Made by a program: the position numbers and the translations under genes. A stretch of DNA of 64,000 nucleotides. Origin: Bacteroidota bacterium (GTDB lineage Bacteria; Bacteroidota; JABWAT01). Under the pieces are notes generated by a model. The model was not told the origin of the DNA. It saw only the letters and a list, made by a program, of their open reading frames with translations, and made no database searches. Location: assembly GCA_023151185.1 (NCBI GenBank), contig JAKLJL010000002.1, positions 321,058 to 385,057 of the forward strand, in the 5' to 3' direction. Every line of letters starts with the position of its first letter. Positions within the stretch are counted from its first letter, which is position 1. Shown here in pieces: positions 5,268 to 17,357 of this stretch.

Positions 5268-6488
5268 CTAGTAAAGATCCAGGTTTCGTAATTCCCGTGC
5301 TTTCCAGGCAGTTACGCCGACAACCCCTAGGGTCATCAAACCACCGAAGACTACCGATGGAACCAACCCAAGAATCCGGGCTGCAAGACCCGACTCGAAC
5401 GCCCCGATTTCATTAGAAGATCCGATAAAAATCGAGTTTACGGCAGAAACCCGGCCTTTCATGGAATCGGGTGTGTACAGTTGCATGATGGTCGCCCGGA
5501 TCACCACTGAAACCCCGTCAAAGATCCCGCTCAGGAAAAGCAGGAGCAGCGACAGCCAGAACCAGGTGGAAAGTCCAAAACCGATCATCGTCATGCCGAA
5601 TAACGCAACCATGACCAGAAGAAGTTTCCCGGCCTTCTTCCTGACCGGATTTTTCGCCAGCCAAAGGGCGACAACAACCGAACCGACGGCCGGGGCAGCC
5701 CGTAAAATTCCCAGCCCCTCAGGACCGGCCGAGAGAATTTCACTTGCAAAAACCGGGAGAAGGGCAACTGCCCCGCCAAAAAGAACGGCAAATAAGTCAA
5801 GAGAAATGGCAGACAGAATCATCTGGTTTCCAAAAACAAACCGGATACCTGAAAACAGGCTTTCCTTTAACTCCATTTTTTTATCGTGGACCGGGACTGG
5901 CCTTGACCGGATCATCAGTACAGAAAGAAAAGCTCCCGATACCAGAAAAATATTCAATCCATAAGTCCAGCTTCCACCAAAAAAACCATAAAGGAGTCCG
6001 GCAACAGCGGGCCCGCCGACTGCTGCTGTCTGCCAGGCTGTGGTGCTCAGCGCTGAGGCTTTTCCCAGTTCCTCCCGGCGAATTATTTCAGACAGAAGTG
6101 CAAAGACAGACGGCCCCTGAAAACCTCTGGCGAGACCCGTAAGAAATACAGCAGCATAAACCGGAAAAGTGCCGTAAATTTTAAGGATCTGTTCACCGTT
6201 CAGGGTAAAAATCCATAAGGATACTGAACAGATAAATAAAAGAGTGTAGGCTGACAGAACGATTCTGCGGCGGACCGAATGATCGGCAAGATGCCCGGCA
6301 AACAGGGCAACCCCGATGGCAGGAATCGCCTCTGTCAGCCCGATGAGACCCAGCGCAAGCGGATCCCCCGTAAGCTGGTAAATCTGCCAGCCTACCACCA
6401 CAGACTGAATCTGGATATTCAGGGTTATTAAAAAACGGGCGGAAAGAAAAAACCGGAACTCGGAATTGGAAAACGGATTTGAAGACAA
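5268..6488 (-). CDS. MFS transporter, EntS/MFS_3-like exporter
   Basis: A 406-residue major facilitator superfamily protein with about 10-12 hydrophobic segments. The N-terminal half has the loop 2-3 region LFAGHLADHSVRRRIVL, matching the MFS motif A (G-x-L-aD-x-x-x-rkx-x-l). The arrangement and the segment GLARGFQGPSVFALLSEI resemble the EntS/MFS_3 exporters for siderophores or drugs. The start is TTG 6488, preceded by AGGA at a good distance; no ATG is available before the second membrane segment. Substrate unknown. First gene of the leftward pair with the DUF4905-like gene. Confidence 0.85.
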   Translation of the reverse strand: MSSNPFSNSEFRFFLSARFLITLNIQIQSVVVGWQIYQLTGDPLALGLIGLTEAIPAIGVALFAGHLADHSVRRRIVLSAYTLLFICSVSLWIFTLNGEQILKIYGTFPVYAAVFLTGLARGFQGPSVFALLSEIIRREELGKASALSTTAWQTAAVGGPAVAGLLYGFFGGSWTYGLNIFLVSGAFLSVLMIRSRPVPVHDKKMELKESLFSGIRFVFGNQMILSAISLDLFAVLFGGAVALLPVFASEILSAGPEGLGILRAAPAVGSVVVALWLAKNPVRKKAGKLLLVMVALFGMTMIGFGLSTWFWLSLLLLFLSGIFDGVSVVIRATIMQLYTPDSMKGRVSAVNSIFIGSSNEIGAFESGLAARILGLVPSVVFGGLMTLGVVGVTAWKARELRNLDLY

Positions 6489-6640: not shown

Positions 6641-7456
6641 ATGAAAAACCTGCTTATGCTGCCCATCCTGCTGCTTTCGATGTCATTGTATGCCTGCAAT
6701 AAAGACGATGAAGGCGATTCCACCCAAACGGATAAAACCTATCAACTGGTCTTTTCTGATGAATTTGACTATTCCGGCCTTCCCGATAAAACCAAATGGA
6801 CCATGGAAACCGGTGGTCATGGCTGGGGAAATGCTGAGCTTCAGTATTACACCAACAGCCAAAATAACGCCACTGTGTCGAACGGTACACTGAAGATACG
6901 GGCGTTGTATGAATCTTATGGAAGTAATGCCTTTACCTCAGCCCGGCTCAATTCAGTCCAGAACTGGACTTACGGCAAGATGGAAATCAAAGCGAAAATT
7001 CCGAAAGGAAAAGGAACCTGGCCGGCAATCTGGATGCTCGGCGCCAACATCAGAACCGGAACAAGCTGGCCCGGCTGTGGTGAAATTGATATTATGGAGC
7101 ATGTCGGCAAAGACCTGAACCGGGTTCACGGATCCATTCACTGCGATGCCTACAACCACCCGAAAGGAACTCAGAAAACCGCCAATCTGGTCATCCCGAC
7201 GGCAACAACCGAATTCCATGTCTACAGCATTGAATGGACGTCTGAACAGATTGATTTCTATATCGACGGGCAGAAATACCTGACTTTTAAAAACGAACAC
7301 AAAACCAACGCCGAATGGCCTTTCGACAAGCCCCAATTTATGCTGCTGAATGTGGCAGTTGGCGGAGGCTGGGGCGGCCCGGATATTGACTATGCCGCTT
7401 TCCCTCAGTATACATTCATGGAAATTGATTACGTCAGGGTATACCAGAAAAAATAA
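6641..7456 (+). CDS. GH16 beta-glucanase lipoprotein (laminarinase-like)
   Basis: A 271-residue glycoside hydrolase family 16 enzyme. The catalytic signature EIDIME is at 148-153: Glu148 nucleophile, Asp150 assisting, Glu153 acid/base. Flanking family features are WPAIWMLG and the C-terminal WPFDKPQFMLLNVAVGGGWGG. The leader ends SLYAC with Cys19 as lipoprotein anchor, so the enzyme probably sits on the cell surface and cuts beta-1,3 or mixed-linkage glucans. ATG 6641 has AGGA upstream and lies downstream of the -7 element. It is followed by a terminator and so is monocistronic. The GH3 beta-glucosidase at 29.4 kb could finish its products. Confidence 0.92.
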   Translation: MKNLLMLPILLLSMSLYACNKDDEGDSTQTDKTYQLVFSDEFDYSGLPDKTKWTMETGGHGWGNAELQYYTNSQNNATVSNGTLKIRALYESYGSNAFTSARLNSVQNWTYGKMEIKAKIPKGKGTWPAIWMLGANIRTGTSWPGCGEIDIMEHVGKDLNRVHGSIHCDAYNHPKGTQKTANLVIPTATTEFHVYSIEWTSEQIDFYIDGQKYLTFKNEHKTNAEWPFDKPQFMLLNVAVGGGWGGPDIDYAAFPQYTFMEIDYVRVYQKK

Positions 7457-7481
7457 GACATCAAATCTGATCTGATTGATT

Positions 7482-7510
7482 AACGGAGGCTGCAGCCTCC
7501 GTTTTTATTT
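7482..7510 (+). terminator. Rho-independent terminator
   Basis: A perfect palindrome at 7482-7503 (AACGGAGGC-TGCA-GCCTCCGTT) followed by TTTTATTTT, directly after the GH16 gene. Confidence 0.9.
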
Positions 7511-7605
7511 TCCCCGTTTTCAACCGCCTCTCCGTTGTGCCCTGAAAAGTTAATACTATCTGATAGAGAAAATTGATAACTTCCCCTGAAGAAATCACCT
7601 GAATT

Positions 7606-7693
7606 CATTAGCATGAGTTGCTCCAATCATTAGCACTGGTTGGGGAACTCTTCAGCATGAGTTTTGGAAAGCATTGGCATGAGTTTGGGCAAG
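7606..7693. repeat. Four-unit 22-bp degenerate tandem repeat
   Basis: Four head-to-tail units of exactly 22 bases start at 7606, 7628, 7650 and 7672. They share the core CAttaGCATGAGTTktgG (for example CATTAGCATGAGTT in unit 1 and CATTGGCATGAGTTTGGG in unit 4). One or two more decayed units can be followed to about 7740. There are no spacers, so it is not CRISPR. The rest of the 308-base gap 7457-7764 holds the GH16 terminator and, at 7552-7562, a small dyad CTATC-T-GATAG; I see no gene in it. Function unknown. Confidence 0.75.
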
Positions 7694-7764
7694 GGTGCCA
7701 GAAGGTTGGAAAAGAGTCAGAATTGTTGGGTTGATTTCCCCAAACAATACCTCCCGCCTTTGCG

Positions 7765-8232
7765 TCAGACGATGGGAATCCGGTGCTGGGACGAGATCCA
7801 ATCCGGGCCGGAAATCAATGAATATGCTGCGGTAAGCCCGGCTTTTTGTGCTGGTAAAGGTAAAAGTTCAACCGCCTTTTCAACCGGAAGCCACTGAAAA
7901 TCATCATGTTCAGCATCCAGCTTTACGGGATCATTTCCCGTAAGTAATGCAAAAACCGGGATCGTGCTGATCCGGTCTGACTCCCATTCATAAAACTGAT
8001 TGATATAGGGAACCGACCAAAAGTTCAGAGGTAATAGTCCTGTTTCTTCCCAAACTTCTCTGAGGGCTGCTTTCCAGGCTGGTTCGTCATCTTTGATTTT
8101 CCCGCCCACCATCCGCCAATTTCCTGCATAAATCCGGTCAGCAGACCGTCGTAGAAGAAGGCACTCCAGGTCGCCGGTTTGCTGCCTTCTGAAAACAAAA
8201 CAGTCGATCACCCGGATAACCGGAGTTTTCAT
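7765..8232 (-). CDS. Nudix hydrolase
   Basis: A 155-residue Nudix pyrophosphohydrolase. The Nudix box is perfect: Gly44, Glu50, Arg58-Glu59, Glu62-Glu63, Gly65-Leu66 (G-x5-E-x7-REV-x-EE-x-GL). The N-terminal strand VIRVIDCFVFRR and the LLLRRS segment are typical of the (di)nucleoside polyphosphate or dNTP-cleaning subfamilies; the exact substrate cannot be read. Its ATG overlaps the stop of the upstream CYTH gene (ATGA), so the two are translationally coupled. Both act on polyphosphate-bearing substrates, which may be meaningful. Confidence 0.9.
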   Translation of the reverse strand: MKTPVIRVIDCFVFRRQQTGDLECLLLRRSADRIYAGNWRMVGGKIKDDEPAWKAALREVWEETGLLPLNFWSVPYINQFYEWESDRISTIPVFALLTGNDPVKLDAEHDDFQWLPVEKAVELLPLPAQKAGLTAAYSLISGPDWISSQHRIPIV

Positions 8233-8762
8233 AACTGCTCCTGAACAGGTGAATCTGCTCCGCCGGCCAGATCAGAGTATGAACCGGCAATTTCGTCAAC
8301 CGGATCAATGGAAAAATGGCTTTTCAGGAAATTAAACAGGTTCCGGTCATTTTCAGTTACCTCACGGGAACCGGCCATAACTTCAAACTCTGCAAACCAG
8401 CCGGCCCCGTCAACTTCATCAAGATGAATCCGGGCATTCTGAAACAGCCAGACCTGCCGGGTTTTTTCGACTACCTGCCAACGGGTTAAAAATCCGTCCA
8501 GAAATCCCTCTGCTTTATCTGCGGGCACAAGGTCAAGAAGGTCATACCGGCTGATTTTATTTTCTGTCTGATCCGGCCGGTGATAATGGATAAACTGAGC
8601 CTGTTTACCGTTTATCAGCCTGAGTTTCAACCTGCCTGACGGGACTGTATAATAAATATCTTTTTGCCTGAGACATTCCCTTCGGTGCGGCGGAAGTTCT
8701 TCAGCCCGCCGGATAAAGAGTTCCGGTTCCCTGCACCGGCATTTTAATTCCAGATTCTGCAT
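8229..8762 (-). CDS. CYTH domain protein (CyaB-like / triphosphate tunnel)
   Basis: A 177-residue protein opening with LELKCR, a variant of the ExExK signature of CYTH enzymes, followed by QKDIYYTVPSGRLKLRL, the Asp/Tyr and Arg-Lys-Leu-Arg block typical of class IV adenylyl cyclase-like CyaB proteins. The first Glu of ExExK appears to be Asn (NLELK), so the tunnel is slightly altered. Members are cyclases, thiamine or inorganic triphosphatases; the sequence does not decide. It is the first gene of a two-gene leftward operon with the Nudix hydrolase. Confidence 0.75.
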   Translation of the reverse strand: MQNLELKCRCREPELFIRRAEELPPHRRECLRQKDIYYTVPSGRLKLRLINGKQAQFIHYHRPDQTENKISRYDLLDLVPADKAEGFLDGFLTRWQVVEKTRQVWLFQNARIHLDEVDGAGWFAEFEVMAGSREVTENDRNLFNFLKSHFSIDPVDEIAGSYSDLAGGADSPVQEQL

Positions 8763-9387: not shown

Positions 9388-11838
9388 ATGCCCTTTTCAT
9401 CCAGAATAAACCCAGCCCTTTTCTTCCTTGCTGCAGCCGGACTGATTGTTTCCTTCTGGCTTGCCGGTGACATTTTCCCTTATATTTCCTTCGACAACCG
9501 GATCGACCGGAAAGAGGCTATTGAAACAGCATCCCGGTTTCTGAAGGAACGGGGATATAACCCCGATGAATACTCGGCAGTAACCTGGATTACCGATACA
9601 GATGATCACCGTCTTGCCTGGATTTATCTGGGACTGAAAGCTGCCGACTCACTTGCAGAGGTCTTTCCTGCCGGTCTATTTTCTTCCCGCTGGCAGGTTC
9701 ACTTTTACCAGAATGTAAATCAAAGTGCTCCGCAGCGGAAATTTCATGTCTTTCTGGATGGATCAGGACAGGTAAACGGATTCAGTTTCCTGCTCAGCGA
9801 AAAACTGACCAACACCGGGTTTGGAGACCCCCAGATCAGTCAGGATTCTGCATTGGCTATTTTCAACAATGCCCTATCTGAAGCCAGGCTGGATACCTCT
9901 GGCTTTAAGCTGGCAGAAGCTTCGGGTGAAAAGCAGCAGAACCGGATGGTTTACACTTTTAAATATCAAAAACCGTTTCCACCCCTCAACAGCACCCTGC
10001 AGATTTATGGAATGGTCCAGGGCAGTGAACTGACTCAGTTTATCTATGAACTGAATCAGCCTGAATCATTTACCCTGGCCCGGTCAGACTATCAATCCTT
10101 TGTCTTTCTATTGGTAATGGGATCCATTGTCATCTTTTTCTTCATGCTGGTGCTTCAACTGGGTGTTTTTCTTAAAAAATACCACGAAGGTGAAGTTGGT
10201 GTAAAAACAGCCGGAAGTATCTTTTGGCTGGTTTTTGTCCTGAAAGGTCTGCAGGCGATCAATGAATTCCCTGCTTCGGGTTATGGATACGGATTTGGTG
10301 AACTTTCCTATGACTGGATCAACATCGTGATCCTGATTTTCAAGGTTCTGGTTCTGAATCCACTCTATGGTCTGGCCGCATTTTCGGCCTGGAGTATCGG
10401 TGAGTCCTGGCTTAGAGAGAAACACAGCGATAAACTGGCCTCTCTTGACGGACTTTTAAGCCGCCAATGGCGTGACAGGAGGTTCGCTGTTTCTACCGCC
10501 AGAGGGTATCTCTTCGGGCTCGCCGGATTGGGGCTTTTTATTGGTCTTGGCTGGAGTCTGATGACCCTAACCGGGGGAACCAACAACCAGACCTTTTTCC
10601 ATGAAATTCTGACGGCCTGGTTCCCTGCCGGTGCACCTTTTTTAAATGCAGTTTCTGCCGCACTTCTGGGTGAACTTCTGTTCAGGCTGTTCGGCAACCT
10701 GTATCTGGAAAGAAAAACAGGACTCCGCTGGCTGGCTACACTGATCTCATCGGTAATCTGGGCTGTTTTCGCCACCATTTTCTGGCGGATTCAGTTTTTT
10801 GTGGAACCTATCTGGATAACCTTCCTGATTCCGTTTGTCTTCGGAATTTATTTCTCGGTTCTGTTCTGGAAATATGACCTGCTCACAACGGTTATGGCAA
10901 GTTTTACTGTCGTCGCAGGCTTGCTTCTGGTCCCCTTTCTGGTTTCGGCAGGACCAGGTTTTATTCCGGATCTGATAGTTTCGGTGGTTTTGATTCTGCT
11001 GCCGGCAGTTTTAATGGCTGCCGGTTTCCTTTCAGGAAAGGAATTCTCCTATCAACCGGATACGACACCGGCCCATATCCGCCGGATCACCGAACGGGTA
11101 AGAATGACCCGGGAACTCGAAATTGCCCGCCAGGTTCAGATGAAACTGCTGCCGAAACGAAGTCCCGAAATTCCCGGATTCGATATTGCCGGAATCTGTA
11201 TCCCGGCTCTGGAGGTGGGTGGCGACTATTACGACTTTATTGACCTGCCGGACGGAAATATCGGTATTGCAGTTGGGGACGTTTCAGGAAAAGGACTGCC
11301 CGCTGCTATTTACATGACCCTGACCAAGGGGATTGTTCAGTCTCATGCCGATCACCAGTTGCCACCCGGTGTTGTTCTTTCAAAAGTAAATCAGCTTTTA
11401 TACCGGTCCATTGAAAAAGGGAATTTTGTTTCCATGTTCTATGCGGTTCTTTCAGTCAATTCCCGCAAAATGACCTTAAGCAGGGCAGGTCACAACCCGG
11501 CTGTCTTTCTGTTTGAAAATGCCGGACAGATCAGCCTTAAACCCAACGGACTTGCTCTCGGAATTGAAAAAGGTGAAGTTTTTGACCGGGTGATTCAGGA
11601 TCAGGACCTACAGCTTTACCCGGGGAATGTTATTTTATTTTACACCGACGGGTACACCGAGGCAATGAATGAACAGAAAGAGGAATTTGGAGAGGACCGC
11701 CTGATTGCTGCTCTCCAGGAAGTCAGACACCTTCCGTCGGAAAAAATCATTTCCCACATCAGTCAGAAAATCCGTCAGTTTGCCGGATCGGCTCCTCAAC
11801 ATGATGATATGACCATGGTAGTTGTCAAAGTGGTCTGA
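9388..11838 (+). CDS. SpoIIE-type serine phosphatase with large membrane sensor
   Basis: An 816-residue protein. Residues 10-30 form a first membrane helix. Residues about 45-225 are extracytoplasmic and hold two PepSY-like repeats (IDRKEAIETASRFLKERGY; ISQDSALAIFNNALSE). From about 235 to 560 there are many membrane helices; near 425 is ALLGELLFRLFG and later FVFGIYFSVLFWKYDLLTTV, which read like a degenerate CPBP (CAAX protease-like) domain without its second Glu and its His. From about 577 (EIARQVQMKLLP) to the end is a complete PP2C SpoIIE domain: GGDYYDF, GDVSGKGLPAA, GHNPAV, FYTDGYTEA, HDDMTMVVV. Such phosphatases usually control anti-sigma or anti-anti-sigma partners; none is adjacent. 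Confidence 0.9.
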   Translation: MPFSSRINPALFFLAAAGLIVSFWLAGDIFPYISFDNRIDRKEAIETASRFLKERGYNPDEYSAVTWITDTDDHRLAWIYLGLKAADSLAEVFPAGLFSSRWQVHFYQNVNQSAPQRKFHVFLDGSGQVNGFSFLLSEKLTNTGFGDPQISQDSALAIFNNALSEARLDTSGFKLAEASGEKQQNRMVYTFKYQKPFPPLNSTLQIYGMVQGSELTQFIYELNQPESFTLARSDYQSFVFLLVMGSIVIFFFMLVLQLGVFLKKYHEGEVGVKTAGSIFWLVFVLKGLQAINEFPASGYGYGFGELSYDWINIVILIFKVLVLNPLYGLAAFSAWSIGESWLREKHSDKLASLDGLLSRQWRDRRFAVSTARGYLFGLAGLGLFIGLGWSLMTLTGGTNNQTFFHEILTAWFPAGAPFLNAVSAALLGELLFRLFGNLYLERKTGLRWLATLISSVIWAVFATIFWRIQFFVEPIWITFLIPFVFGIYFSVLFWKYDLLTTVMASFTVVAGLLLVPFLVSAGPGFIPDLIVSVVLILLPAVLMAAGFLSGKEFSYQPDTTPAHIRRITERVRMTRELEIARQVQMKLLPKRSPEIPGFDIAGICIPALEVGGDYYDFIDLPDGNIGIAVGDVSGKGLPAAIYMTLTKGIVQSHADHQLPPGVVLSKVNQLLYRSIEKGNFVSMFYAVLSVNSRKMTLSRAGHNPAVFLFENAGQISLKPNGLALGIEKGEVFDRVIQDQDLQLYPGNVILFYTDGYTEAMNEQKEEFGEDRLIAALQEVRHLPSEKIISHISQKIRQFAGSAPQHDDMTMVVVKVV

Positions 11839-12800: not shown

Positions 12801-13322
12801 TTAGAGATTTTCTTTGATCACTGCTATCAGTTTTTTAATGTCTGAATCCGACAGTTTTCCTGCTTTTTCAAAAATCACTTTACCGGTTTTATCAAACGTG
12901 ATGACATGATAATTGTCATCAGCCAATCCCCACTTCCTAACCAGAACTTTATCCTTGTCCATGACATAAATGGTATGAGGAAAATCCTTTTGCTTTCCGT
13001 CAAGGATCATTTTGATCACGGCATTGGGTTTCCAGGTGGCATCCATGTTGATCATGGCGATGGAAGCATATTTATCCCGCGGGAAATTCTCTTTTTTTAG
13101 AGCCTGTTCAACGGCTTCATTCACATCTTTTTCATCCGGATCCACATACATCATTGTAAAGACTTTCCCGGAAATTTCAGAACTGCTCCACAGCGTTCCG
13201 TTCAAACGTCCGCCGGAGTCTCCAGAAAGATCGACTTTTGGAAGTGATTTCCCGACGGAAATCTGAGCAGAGGCCAGCACCGGAACGATCATCAGGACCA
13301 GCAGTGACAGAAGGGTTTTCAT
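12801..13322 (-). CDS. YtfJ-like periplasmic thioredoxin-fold protein
   Basis: A 173-residue protein with a cleavable signal peptide (ends ASAQ). The body matches the YtfJ family of thioredoxin-fold proteins: VGKSLPKVDLS, KENFPRDKYASIAMINMD, VMDKDKVLVRKWGL, ITFDKTGKVIFEKAGKLS. It has no CxxC, so it is not a dithiol oxidoreductase; YtfJ function is unknown. The ribosome binding site is AAGGAT before ATG 13322. The small membrane protein gene upstream is on the same strand, 35 bases away. Confidence 0.85.
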   Translation of the reverse strand: MKTLLSLLVLMIVPVLASAQISVGKSLPKVDLSGDSGGRLNGTLWSSSEISGKVFTMMYVDPDEKDVNEAVEQALKKENFPRDKYASIAMINMDATWKPNAVIKMILDGKQKDFPHTIYVMDKDKVLVRKWGLADDNYHVITFDKTGKVIFEKAGKLSDSDIKKLIAVIKENL

Positions 13323-13599: not shown

Positions 13600-14265
13600 T
13601 CAGGTTCCCTTCGGACCGGAAATGAATTTATTCTGAATAGCAAACCGGACCAGTTCATTCAGGGTATGAAGCCTCAGTTTCCGCATCAGATTGCTTCGGT
13701 GGGTTTCGATGGTTTTATAACTCAGTGTCATCGCTTCAGATATTTCACGTGTCGAATGACCCTCTGCAATCCGGGTTAAAATTTCCTTTTCCCTGAGGGT
13801 CAGAACATCTGTCTTTGACGGAACCGGATGTTTTTTCAAAGCCAGAAAGGCAGAAATCAGTTCGGATGAGGATGCCGGCGTTAAATATTTCTTCCCGGAA
13901 AGCACCAGATCAACCGCCTCTTTAAATTCGGAAGCAGTTGCATCCTTCTTTAAAAATCCCATGGCCCCAGCCTCGAGTGATGGAATAAGGTATTCTTTTG
14001 GGTCATTCATGGTTATCATGATCACTTTTGCTTCCGGATTTTTGCTTAGAATCTGCTGGCAAACATGAATTCCGTTCAGAAAGGGAATGGTGATATCCAA
14101 AATGATCAGATCCGGCATTTTTTCGAGGGCAATAGCCAGTGATTCAATTCCGTCATCAGATTCAAAAACATCACCCAACGGATATAGATCCCGCATCATC
14201 TGAATAATGCCTTTCCGGGTAAAGGTGTGGTCATCAGCAACAAGCAGGGAAATTCTGGTATTCAT
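13600..14265 (-). CDS. NarL/LuxR-family response regulator
   Basis: A 221-residue two-domain response regulator. The receiver has Asp11-Asp12, phosphoacceptor Asp57 (LIILDITIP), Thr85 and Lys106/107. The C-terminal LuxR-type helix-turn-helix (about 155-215) includes LTLREKEILTRIAEGHSTREISEAMTL and KTIETHRSNLMRKL. ATG 14265 is preferred because GAGG lies just upstream; a longer frame would need TTG 14292. It is divergent from a secreted protein, 7-TM protein and histidine kinase, so the kinase at 15.7 kb is the likely partner and the 229-base gap the likely target. Confidence 0.93.
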   Translation of the reverse strand: MNTRISLLVADDHTFTRKGIIQMMRDLYPLGDVFESDDGIESLAIALEKMPDLIILDITIPFLNGIHVCQQILSKNPEAKVIMITMNDPKEYLIPSLEAGAMGFLKKDATASEFKEAVDLVLSGKKYLTPASSSELISAFLALKKHPVPSKTDVLTLREKEILTRIAEGHSTREISEAMTLSYKTIETHRSNLMRKLRLHTLNELVRFAIQNKFISGPKGT

Positions 14266-14494
14266 CACAGCCTCAGATTGATTTTTCTTCAAAAATGAGA
14301 AAAAAAATATAAAAAGTCTCTCAGGTGAATACCGTATTTTTCACCAGTTTTCACCCTTAGATGATCTCAGGGTTTTCCCTCTAAACCCTTGTTCTCAAGC
14401 ACTTTGGCTTCGTTTTAGCCGGTTTCACGCCTGTTATCGATTTTTAACCAGGCGGAATATTTTTCATTTGATATCCACTAAAAAGAGGACAAAA
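14266..14494. promoter_or_regulatory. Divergent regulatory region of the signalling cluster
   Basis: This gap separates the response regulator from its divergent operon. It holds two copies of TTTTCACC 11 bases apart (about 14338-14357), and a dyad CGCCTG (14428-14433) / CAGGCG (14449-14454) with a 15-base spacer. The sequence TATTTTTC at about 14459 is one base off the TAnnTTTG -7 element for the rightward operon. Regulator binding here is inference. Confidence 0.4.
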
Positions 14495-14941
14495 ATGAAA
14501 ACAAACTGGTTCACAACCGCCTTAATTTTCCTGTTTCCGGTACTGGCCTTTTCCCAGACTGCCGGTGAGCTTTTTACAGAAAGTACTGCACTTGACCTGT
14601 TTGGTGCACCGCTTGCCAATGTAACGGTAAACCATGCCGAGTTTGAATCTGCTGTTACCTATGCATCTGCTTCTGGTGATAAAATCTGGTTTTGGTTTGA
14701 TGAAACCCGGATTGAGTTTGTAATTACCGGACGCGACCAGAAGCCATTATATTTTAATGGAACGCCTGATTTAGAAGGAAAACTGGCCCGTCTTGCCAGC
14801 ATCAGTCTGGTTCAGGACCTGTTAAATTCAAACCCAGGTCAGCCGGTTCATTTACAAATCCGGCCAAATCATGTATTTTCGGTACAATGTGGCGGTACTG
14901 TACTTGAACGGATCTGGCCGTGCCCACCATCCTGTAACTGA
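14495..14941 (+). CDS. Secreted protein with Cys-rich C-terminus, unknown
   Basis: A 148-residue protein with a clear cleavable signal peptide (hydrophobic core then FSQ). The mature part is small and beta-rich and ends CGGTVLERIWPCPPSC, so three cysteines lie within the last 20 residues. No family recognised. ATG 14495 has AGAGGA upstream. It is the first gene of a tight operon with the 7-TM-like protein (17-base gap) and the histidine kinase, and divergent from the response regulator, so it may be an extracytoplasmic ligand-binding or accessory part of that signalling pathway (inference). Confidence 0.75.
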   Translation: MKTNWFTTALIFLFPVLAFSQTAGELFTESTALDLFGAPLANVTVNHAEFESAVTYASASGDKIWFWFDETRIEFVITGRDQKPLYFNGTPDLEGKLARLASISLVQDLLNSNPGQPVHLQIRPNHVFSVQCGGTVLERIWPCPPSCN

Positions 14942-14958
14942 ACATTTTGATTGGAATT

Positions 14959-15780
14959 ATGGCACAAATTGCAGTAATCCTTTTTCTATCAGCGCTTTCC
15001 GGATATCTCGTTTATGCCTTTTCCGCTAAAATTCAAACAGCCCGGGGAATCGGTTTTCTTCTGTTCGGAGTCTGCACACTGTTTTTTGGTGGTTTCTTTT
15101 TTTCAGTCGACACCATTGGTCTTTTCAGACTCATTTTGCTCACTTCTGCCGGTTTATGGGGCGTTGTCTGGCTTTTTCAGGAAGAAGCACTGTTTAAAAA
15201 AGTATTACTGCCCTATGCCATCTATATGTTATCGGCAATCCCCTTCTTTCTAATCAGTTGGGAGTTTCCGGAAATCAGAGCCAATTGGCCGGGATTTGGA
15301 TCATTTAAAGTAACAGTTTCCGAACTATTGCTGTTTGCTGCCCAAAGCTTTGTCATCTGGTCTTTTTTAAAAACAGGCAGAATACTGGTAATTGCCGGTC
15401 AAATTACCATTTCGATGATTTTTATATTTGCGTTTATTGGCGGAATGGAATTTTACCGGCTTTCCCTTTTCCCGGTCACTGATTTGATTCTGATTATGCT
15501 GACTCTCAAAATTATCTTATCTGAAACCCATTTTTCCGGGAAACTTCGGATAGATCTTTTGGTCCTGGCCACTTTATTTATCCTGTATCTGGTCGATGAC
15601 CTTTCATTGTTATTTGACTCAGTGAATGTGGGACCTGAACAAAAAGATATGAAAGAAGATCCTTACATTCGATTTTTATTAAACCAATTACCCCAATATG
15701 TCATTTTATTTTATTTTTCTTTACATCCGTCAGTTCGACGCCGATTTTTTCTGGGGATGGGAAAACCCAATCTGGGTTAG
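14959..15780 (+). CDS. Multi-helix membrane protein, probable sensor part of the kinase
   Basis: A 273-residue protein with about seven or eight hydrophobic segments and short loops, no enzymatic motif. ATG 14959 is chosen over TTG 14947. Its last 83 bases overlap the start of the histidine kinase in another frame. The layout, seven helices followed at once by a helix, coiled coil and kinase domain, is that of a single 7-TM sensor kinase cut in two; either the proteins are separate and translationally coupled, or a frameshift joins them. No family recognised. Confidence 0.7.
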   Translation: MAQIAVILFLSALSGYLVYAFSAKIQTARGIGFLLFGVCTLFFGGFFFSVDTIGLFRLILLTSAGLWGVVWLFQEEALFKKVLLPYAIYMLSAIPFFLISWEFPEIRANWPGFGSFKVTVSELLLFAAQSFVIWSFLKTGRILVIAGQITISMIFIFAFIGGMEFYRLSLFPVTDLILIMLTLKIILSETHFSGKLRIDLLVLATLFILYLVDDLSLLFDSVNVGPEQKDMKEDPYIRFLLNQLPQYVILFYFSLHPSVRRRFFLGMGKPNLG

Positions 15781-16651
15781 CCTGGCTCTGATTTCGGTTG
15801 TCGTTATTCTGATCGTCAGTTTTCTCAAGTATCTGATCTGGCCTCAGCAGAAGAGGCTTCTGGAACAGCACCATGAAATCTCCAAACTGACAACTGACCG
15901 GGAAACCCTGTCGAACCAGGTCACTGAACTGAATACCCACCTTTCCTATGCCCGCACAGATGCAACCAAACTGGAATCCTCTTACGCCGGGCTTGACGCA
16001 CAAACCGATGCCCGGTTCAAACGGCTTGACAGAGCTTTACACGATTTCGCCAACTTTATCAATTCTCCGCTGATGAGTCTGAAAGTCCTGGCCACCAAGC
16101 TGAACCAGTCCGAAAATAAACCAGAATCCAGAGAATTGATCGATGAAATCAACCGTGAGCTATCTGAGCTGAAAGACTATGTTCCCCAGATCCGGGAAGA
16201 ATTTAAATCCGGTACGCTGACCGGTAAATTCTGGAGACTTGATCTTTTGCTTCCCAAATCAAGAACCATGCCCCATCTAACCCTTGAAGTAACCGGAAAC
16301 AGGGGATGCAGAGTTTATACCCACAAGGAAACCGCAGATGGTTTGGTTGCCAACCTGATCTCGAATGCACTGCGGTTCGGTGCAACCAGGATTCTGATTA
16401 ATATTGAGGAAACTCCCCGGGAAATTCACCTTCAGTTTTTCAACAACGGTGATCCTCTGAGCCGTGAAGCAGGCGACAAACTGTTCCGGGTTCCTTTCAC
16501 GACAGGTGGAACAGGTCATTTATTTACTTCCCTCATGGAGTTAAAATCAATCCATCCGTCCCACCGGGCAGAAGTACTCAGAAACCAGCTTCCTGATCAG
16601 TTTACAACCGGATTCCGGATCACCTTTCCTGCGATCAGGGATTTTTTCTGA
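15698..16651 (+). CDS. Histidine kinase-like protein (degenerate boxes)
   Basis: A 317-residue protein: one membrane helix (about 26-46), a coiled coil (50-105), an H-box with His115 (ALHDFANFINSPLMSL), and an HATPase domain with N-box DGLVANLISNALRFG. The G1 box reads FFNNGDPLS and the G2 region TTGGTGHLFTS, both off the usual DNGxG and GxGLG, so the ATP site is degenerate but recognisable. No ribosome binding site precedes ATG 15698, which lies inside the upstream membrane gene; no other start exists before the helix. The likely partner is the response regulator at 13.6 kb. Confidence 0.75.
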   Translation: MSFYFIFLYIRQFDADFFWGWENPIWVSLALISVVVILIVSFLKYLIWPQQKRLLEQHHEISKLTTDRETLSNQVTELNTHLSYARTDATKLESSYAGLDAQTDARFKRLDRALHDFANFINSPLMSLKVLATKLNQSENKPESRELIDEINRELSELKDYVPQIREEFKSGTLTGKFWRLDLLLPKSRTMPHLTLEVTGNRGCRVYTHKETADGLVANLISNALRFGATRILINIEETPREIHLQFFNNGDPLSREAGDKLFRVPFTTGGTGHLFTSLMELKSIHPSHRAEVLRNQLPDQFTTGFRITFPAIRDFF

Positions 16652-16746: not shown

Positions 16747-16820
16747 ATTATACGGTGTTTCCTGTATTTCCTTTTTCCCTGATCCGGGCAAACTTTGCAC
16801 TGGTCAGGTCAAAGGAAAAT

Positions 16821-17357
16821 ATGACGATACCGGATATGCAGGATTTCAGAAAGTTTCTTCAGGGAGACAACCCGGGATCTGGGAACACCACCCGAAACTG
16901 CCGGGTTTTTCTCTTTCATCAATCTGAAGATGCCGATCCGGCAAGGTTGGTTTACCGGTATCTGAAATCAACCGGTGTTGAGGTTGATGGACCTGAATAT
17001 CTGACCGACCCGGTCCCGCCAGGTCACTCCACCCGGTTTTTACGGGATGTCATATCAGAAAAGCTTGACGGGTGTTCCCACCTTCTGATTCTTGTTTCCG
17101 ACCAGACTCTTTTTAATCCGGTATTTCCCTGGCTCATGACGTGGTGTTCAGGAAAACTGAACCTGTCACTGGTCAAGCTCAAGGGAACCCGCAAGGACAA
17201 GCCAGAGTATTTCAGGTCGGTTGACTGGATTCAAAATACACAGCAAATGGAAACCTGGATTTCTACTGTAAAAAATGAACCCGGCGGCCTGCTTCCTTTT
17301 CACCGGAAGTCCCGAAAAACAGATCACCACCCGCTAAAACTCGTACTCGAACATTAA
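16821..17357 (+). CDS. TIR-like domain protein
   Basis: A 178-residue soluble protein. Residues about 25-140 have the order of a TIR fold: a first strand with RVFLFHQSEDADPARLVY (compare VFISHSSED), a second strand GVEVDGPEY, RFLRDVISEKLDGCSHLLILVSDQTLF, then PWLMTWC. The helix that carries the catalytic Glu in NADase TIR domains reads FPWLMTWCSGKLN and has no Glu, so it may be a binding rather than an enzymatic TIR, or only TIR-related. ATG 16821 with AAAGGA is preferred over a start at 16755. It sits alone between the kinase operon and the TonB receptor. Fold assignment is by eye. Confidence 0.55.
   Translation: MTIPDMQDFRKFLQGDNPGSGNTTRNCRVFLFHQSEDADPARLVYRYLKSTGVEVDGPEYLTDPVPPGHSTRFLRDVISEKLDGCSHLLILVSDQTLFNPVFPWLMTWCSGKLNLSLVKLKGTRKDKPEYFRSVDWIQNTQQMETWISTVKNEPGGLLPFHRKSRKTDHHPLKLVLEH

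Follow-up and report, generated by a model that had tools for sequence, protein, structure and literature searches.

A conserved gene module of Bacteroidota comprising a small CPPxC protein, a polytopic membrane protein, a histidine kinase and a response regulator

Four neighbouring genes, encoding a small protein with a C-terminal Cys-Pro-Pro-x-Cys motif (the CPPxC protein), a polytopic membrane protein, a histidine kinase and a response regulator, form a conserved module of the Bacteroidota that is widespread and apparently undescribed. It is described here from a locus in a 64,000-nucleotide stretch of a Bacteroidota genome (the window; contig JAKLJL010000002.1, positions 321,058 to 385,057) and from related loci in other genomes. 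The set is far wider than the window suggests, and includes relatives that are not exported as well as a phage version. The gene set and its conservation, the predicted topologies and folds, dual coding and the co-variation between partners were all computed. The explanation that we favour, and consider probable, is that the CPPxC protein, once exported, engages the outer face of a membrane protein that serves as receptor, and that this receptor in turn drives a separate kinase and regulator.

The open reading frames and domain matches in the window agree with an initial annotation of the locus, which had placed four genes here, among them a divergent NarL-type regulator, a 148-residue secreted protein with a Cys-containing tail and a kinase (Table 1). 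Both regulator domains, the receiver (Response_reg) and the output domain (GerE), pass the Pfam cut-off. Inspection of the gap between the regulator and the operon for operator repeats revealed no convincing inverted repeat. The CPPxC protein of the window has Cys residues at positions 133, 143 and 147 and ends in ERIWPCPPSCN. Other genes lie close by. The ORF immediately 3' of the kinase (16797-17354) has a weak TIR_2 match (E = 0.057) and is not a conserved part of the module, and a YtfJ-family exported protein (12801-13322; PF09695, 6e-22) is encoded two genes past the regulator. A large membrane protein at 9388-11838 carries a SpoIIE phosphatase domain and a weak CAAX-protease-like stretch; its ortholog directly adjoins the module in one congener (L028, 4937-7390).

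Table 1. Features of the module in the window (positions in the window).
Feature	Position	Strand	Remarks
NarL/FixJ-type response regulator	13600..14265	-	Divergent from operon; Response_reg 2.8e-21, GerE 1.9e-18 (Pfam)
Gap between regulator and operon	14266..14494	.	Candidate promoter/operator region, by position only
Exported CPPxC protein, 148 aa	14495..14941	+	Mature part predicted as one sliding-clamp-like domain; family of at least 79 loci
Probable Sec signal peptide MKTNWFTTALIFLFPVLAFS	14495..14554	+	Basis: sequence
C-P-P-S-C motif, C-terminal	14921..14935	+	C, P, P and C kept in 83 sequences (one has CLPLC)
Polytopic membrane protein, proposed receptor half	14959..15780	+	Nine helices, N-out/C-in predicted
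Histidine kinase; single N-terminal membrane helix, sensor domain absent	15698..16651	+	HATPase_c 3.8e-7; G1/G2 unusual
Dual-frame coding region (3' end of membrane-protein gene, 5' end of kinase gene)	15736..15780	+	Drop in third-position divergence

In 79 loci that make up the first branch of the family, a membrane protein of about 190-280 residues is encoded directly 3' of the CPPxC gene in 76, the other three being broken off by contig ends; a kinase is found nearby in 65 and a regulator in 64. For a control drawn from the window's own 54 other genes, such a membrane protein was directly downstream of one, a kinase lay within three genes of 15 and a regulator accompanied two. Chance clustering is ruled out by these co-occurrence counts (76/79 versus 1/54). 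Together with 46 loci of a second branch, described below, the neighbourhood and co-occurrence checks place the four genes together in other genomes. The initial annotation knew of no named system with this exact set; in the part of the literature that was covered, we likewise found no paper on the gene set or the motif and no paper naming the four genes, and no curated family (Pfam, NCBIfam) names the four genes as a set or covers either branch.

Two congeners carry orthologs of the CPPxC protein and of the kinase (the latter 54-56% identical) in the same gene order as the window, and a regulator ortholog (52% identity) is near the module in both; it is adjacent and divergent in one of them, and in the other it lies at a distance of about 2.8 kb. 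Across genomes the genes follow three layouts: (i) a HisKA_3-type kinase and a NarL regulator followed by the CPPxC and membrane genes, (ii) the CPPxC gene, the membrane gene, a kinase and a CheY-like regulator and (iii) the window type with its divergent NarL regulator. The output found beside the constant CPPxC and membrane pair is a HisKA_3 kinase with a NarL regulator, a HisKA kinase with CheY or a membrane-anchored LuxR protein. At one locus (L029, 6423-6878) an ORF that by eye resembles an IS200-type transposase separates the regulator from the CPPxC gene.

A profile search with the first branch found CPPxC homologs in 34 of 395 genomes of the phylum. Homologs also occur in the class of genome G018 (69 of 391 genomes), which includes an Ignavibacteriales MAG, and when genome contigs were scanned with one family member (L063) the single MAG matched was an Ignavibacteriales bacterium. 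In another family of the phylum, every relative ends in C-P-P-x-C and is followed by a membrane protein. The secreted protein of the window has no match in Pfam, NCBIfam, PADLOC or the PDB sequences, and membership of an unrelated known family, which would have spoken against the initial annotation, was thus looked for in these collections and not found. Neither a pattern search of viral contigs nor tblastn against phages and plasmids gave a match.

Most of 83 sequences share the C-terminal consensus T-L-E-x-[SAG]-x-x-C-P-P-x-C-x(0-4). Both Cys residues and the second Pro are invariant in these tails (the single exception to CPPxC is one CLPLC), and positions -4, -2, -1, +3 and +5 are hypervariable, with entropies of 3.3-3.7 bits. 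Several paralogs with differing tails can occur in one genome. At the L078 locus (5480-6292) two CPPxC domains are fused head to tail and agree at 49 of 110 body positions versus 12 of 12 tail positions; identical tails on bodies that are 55% different suggest that one partner reads both. An export signal was judged to be present in 70 of 76 first-branch members, a count set after inspection of ten members scored negative by a script, and absent in six. Seven members are lipoprotein-like.

The AF2 model of the window protein (pLDDT 91.9) is a folded domain up to its end. The top Foldseek matches among PDB and viral models are sliding clamps (probability of about 1.0, E of 5e-3 to 5e-2, TM-score of 0.4-0.54, mostly below 0.5), and we take this as a predicted clamp-like fold, a resemblance of fold rather than membership of the sliding clamps. 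DnaN, PCNA and gp45 form an intracellular ring of clamp domains around DNA, whereas the CPPxC protein is a single domain with a signal peptide, is exported and has no detectable sequence similarity to them.

The membrane protein of the window has no relative in Pfam, NCBIfam, PADLOC or the PDB by sequence or structure, and a scan of genome contigs with it gave no match. It had been described as 7-TM-like; it is indeed polytopic, but the AF2 model of the window copy (pLDDT 85.8) has nine helices, while most relatives are best read as having seven. The positive-inside rule predicts an N-out/C-in orientation for all 43 first-branch and all 39 second-branch membrane proteins, with no conserved catalytic residue in these 82 proteins; the conserved columns of the 43 first-branch members contain neither Cys nor His. 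With this topology and no conserved Cys or His, the protein looks like a receptor and not like a peptidase. One locus (L027, 9884-10726) has a second membrane-protein paralog, 37% identical to the first, 5' of the CPPxC gene.

The HATPase_c domain of the window kinase scores above the Pfam cut-off (31 versus 26.4 bits), and its HisKA match lies below (13.6 bits; E = 0.071); an LHDF[AN]N[FI] box is present in three congeners. Its G1 and G2 boxes (NNGDPLS and GGTGH), first described as degenerate, are unusual, but both congeners carry matching boxes (NNGEPLS and GG[ST]GHSF), which points to a trait of the lineage and not to decay. With one membrane helix and no sensor domain, the kinase probably takes its input from a partner. 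The suggestion that the kinase and 7-TM parts would together make one classic sensor kinase is supported by these features and by the overlap of the two genes, as the pair looks like one split receptor.

In the window the kinase ORF opens out of frame within the 3' end of the membrane-protein ORF. In the two within-genus pairs that include the window, third positions of the membrane-protein frame show a divergence of about 0.7 that drops to 0.13 over the final 15 codons (about 45 nt). In layout (ii) the kinase frame likewise begins within the membrane gene, with an offset of +1, and the diversity at third positions of the membrane-gene frame declines from about 0.6 to 0.14-0.32 beginning at codon -35, where an internal ATG lies. 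This constraint indicates that both frames are coding, and the end of the membrane-protein gene and the start of the kinase are thus both under selection. A programmed frameshift that would fuse the two proteins was considered, since the +1 offset is common to most loci. It is disfavoured for the large group by the onset of constraint at the internal ATG, some 97-106 nt 5' of the stop codon, which fits a separate overlapping start. In L140 and L142 the kinase frame at the end of the membrane gene has no usual start codon near the conserved N-terminus; the two share an ATC 7 nt after AAGGAG, which may be an unusual start codon or reflect a frameshift.

Smaller relatives (L145-L150) emerged from weak profile matches, and with a profile built from these, members of a second branch were found in 39 of the 395 phylum genomes. 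Among its 46 loci, a membrane protein of about 200-230 residues lies alongside in 43 (by automatic count), a kinase in 44 and a regulator in 38. Profile-profile comparison of the small proteins of the two branches (probability of 96.7, E = 3.5e-10, over about 60 C-terminal columns) supports a common origin; the corresponding match between the membrane proteins is weak (35%). The second branch spans the phylum, and most of its members have no signal peptide. The Cys pair is kept in all eight exported members versus 28 of 43 non-exported members, some tails having lost one or both Cys residues. In L170, L182 and L184 the CPP motif is gone from the tail and the membrane protein, kinase and regulator are retained; two of these three tails end in Thr- or Trp-rich sequence.

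Co-variation between the partners was assessed with partial Mantel tests, which can overstate significance for related sequences, and the effects are modest. Across 20 loci of layout (ii), the distances between tails correlate with those between membrane proteins when the kinase is held constant (partial r = 0.29, p = 6e-4), compared with a partial r of 0.04 between tail and kinase with the membrane protein held constant; the tail follows neither kinase nor regulator. In an independent set of loci the tail again follows the membrane protein when body, regulator or kinase is controlled for (r of 0.12-0.21, p <= 0.002); over all tests with kinase, regulator or body constant the partial r is 0.12-0.31 (p <= 0.002). 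The outer half of the membrane protein correlates with both tail (r = 0.20) and body (0.31), and the inner half with neither (-0.04 and 0.02, respectively). The kinase follows both halves (0.47 outer, 0.31 inner), as does the small protein of the second, non-exported branch. The secreted and membrane proteins have median identities of 40-41% versus 56-61% for the kinase and regulator, and they also diverge faster than most flanking genes; taken alone, such fast divergence would be ordinary. The earlier proposal of a secreted ligand-binding partner needs a change: because the variation of the tail follows the outer face of the membrane protein, the CPPxC protein is more likely to be the ligand of that protein, or its ligand-facing subunit, than a generic ligand-binding partner.

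One copy of the module lies in a Mu-like prophage (L031), recognized by MuA, MuB and head and neck proteins (PHROGs) and by a Mu-transposase C-terminal domain (Pfam); further upstream ORFs read as tail and head genes. Here a CPPxC gene with a signal peptide, a membrane-protein gene and a gene for a LuxR-type HTH protein (GerE, 6e-14) with a membrane helix of its own occupy positions 6960-8402, between a leftward regulator-like (repressor-like) ORF and MuA. A related prophage (G535, L193) has regulator-like genes and MuA with none of the cassette genes in between, and the L031 module therefore looks like an acquired control cassette. Its position between repressor and transposase favours a role in communication. 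In viral contigs, a pattern search for the transposase of this phage gave no match, and the LuxR query matched relatives in the HTH region only.

In the mechanism that we favour, the CPPxC protein would be exported and fold as a single clamp-like domain, with the invariant Cys-Pro-Pro-x-Cys frame of its tail presenting a few hypervariable residues. The N-out membrane protein would be the receptor, and the tail would dock on its outer face. The kinase beside it would take its input from this receptor, the gene overlap keeping the pair in step, and would phosphorylate the NarL-type regulator, which would then act on DNA. In this scheme we infer the docking, the direction of signal flow and the phosphotransfer. 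Several observations count against it: export is not universal (most second-branch and six of 76 first-branch members have no signal peptide), the second-branch small protein follows both faces of its membrane partner, some second-branch tails are short of one or both Cys residues and roughly one first-branch locus in five has no kinase in its neighbourhood. That the four genes are mere neighbours without a shared function might be read from the loci that have no kinase or regulator, but it is hardly credible given co-occurrence in 79 and 46 loci and in three different gene orders. The gene order also resembles that of agr-type operons, as if the membrane protein were an AgrB-like processing peptidase or exporter of the CPPxC tail and the kinase sensed the product directly; with no Cys or His in the conserved columns of 43 members and a kinase that has no receptor region of its own, we regard this as very improbable.

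As to the CPPxC protein itself, the mechanism can take two forms, and we rate a self-made extracellular ligand as more likely than a periplasmic sensor that stays with its cell. The first form, a diffusible self-signal of the quorum-sensing kind that may be trimmed to a short tail peptide with a disulphide ring, is a realistic prospect, if somewhat short of an even chance. It would account for the invariant tail frame with its hypervariable positions, for a tail that follows the outer receptor face, for several paralogs with different tails per genome and for the prophage cassette between the repressor-like gene and MuA that a related prophage does not have. However, the protein is well folded to its end, unlike peptide pheromone precursors, and no conserved protease or exporter gene is found in the neighbourhoods. 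The seven lipoprotein-like members also count against a diffusible signal and would instead suit a resident periplasmic sensor subunit (for redox, a metal or a small molecule) that serves its own cell only. Kinases that work with a periplasmic partner are an established kind, and the two invariant Cys residues of exported members would fit such a role; we nevertheless find it doubtful, as the hypervariable motif positions and the identical L078 tails fit recognition better and the Cys residues are missing from some second-branch members. The small protein might also be ancestrally cytoplasmic, regulating the kinase or the membrane protein, with export arising later in the lineage of the window. 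A phylum-wide second branch mostly without signal peptides, in which the small protein follows both membrane-protein faces, is what this would predict, but first-branch tail and body follow the outer half only, and we judge it unlikely.

Among known systems, the 7TMR-DISM proteins (PF07695) are similar in that an N-out 7-TM unit and a beta-rich domain outside the cytoplasm together pass input to a histidine kinase or another output. In the module, however, these roles are divided among three proteins (outer domain, membrane unit and kinase), encoded by separate genes in the loci examined, and PF07695 matches neither the window protein nor any of the 43 first-branch members and only one of 39 second-branch members, weakly (4.5e-4). 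LytS/BtsS-type 7-TM kinases respond to a cue from outside through a seven-helix unit that drives the kinase (PMC10653868); these differ in being one polypeptide with a small-molecule ligand, a LytTR regulator and no secreted protein partner. Agr-type operons likewise encode a signal precursor, a membrane protein of about 200 residues, a kinase and a regulator together. The module differs from them in having no AgrB-like catalytic residues, a folded exported protein, a one-helix kinase and, in the window, a regulator with GerE (NarL-type) in place of LytTR. The arbitrium and phage LuxI/LuxR systems place a phage-borne signal and regulator in the lysis-lysogeny region (PMC13345283). Judged by its position, the L031 cassette resembles them in this; it consists of a signal-peptide protein, a membrane protein and a membrane-anchored LuxR, whereas those systems use an intracellular peptide receptor or an acyl-homoserine lactone.

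Bacteroidota are abundant in soil, water and the gut, and we know of no comparable protein- or peptide-based signalling system in this phylum. As a speculative and somewhat unlikely extension, CPPxC proteins could constitute a large family of Bacteroidota protein pheromones read by a split 7-TM receptor kinase, from which phages captured the signal-receptor pair together with a membrane-anchored LuxR to time lysis. If the CPPxC protein is a ligand, many two-component kinase-regulator pairs that have no assigned cue would gain a candidate signal and a testable receptor, and the outer-half co-variation suggests which receptor face is relevant for mutation. The phage copy would represent a new way for viruses to sense what is around them. 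Even if the protein is a sensor, two large nameless families would gain a common function.
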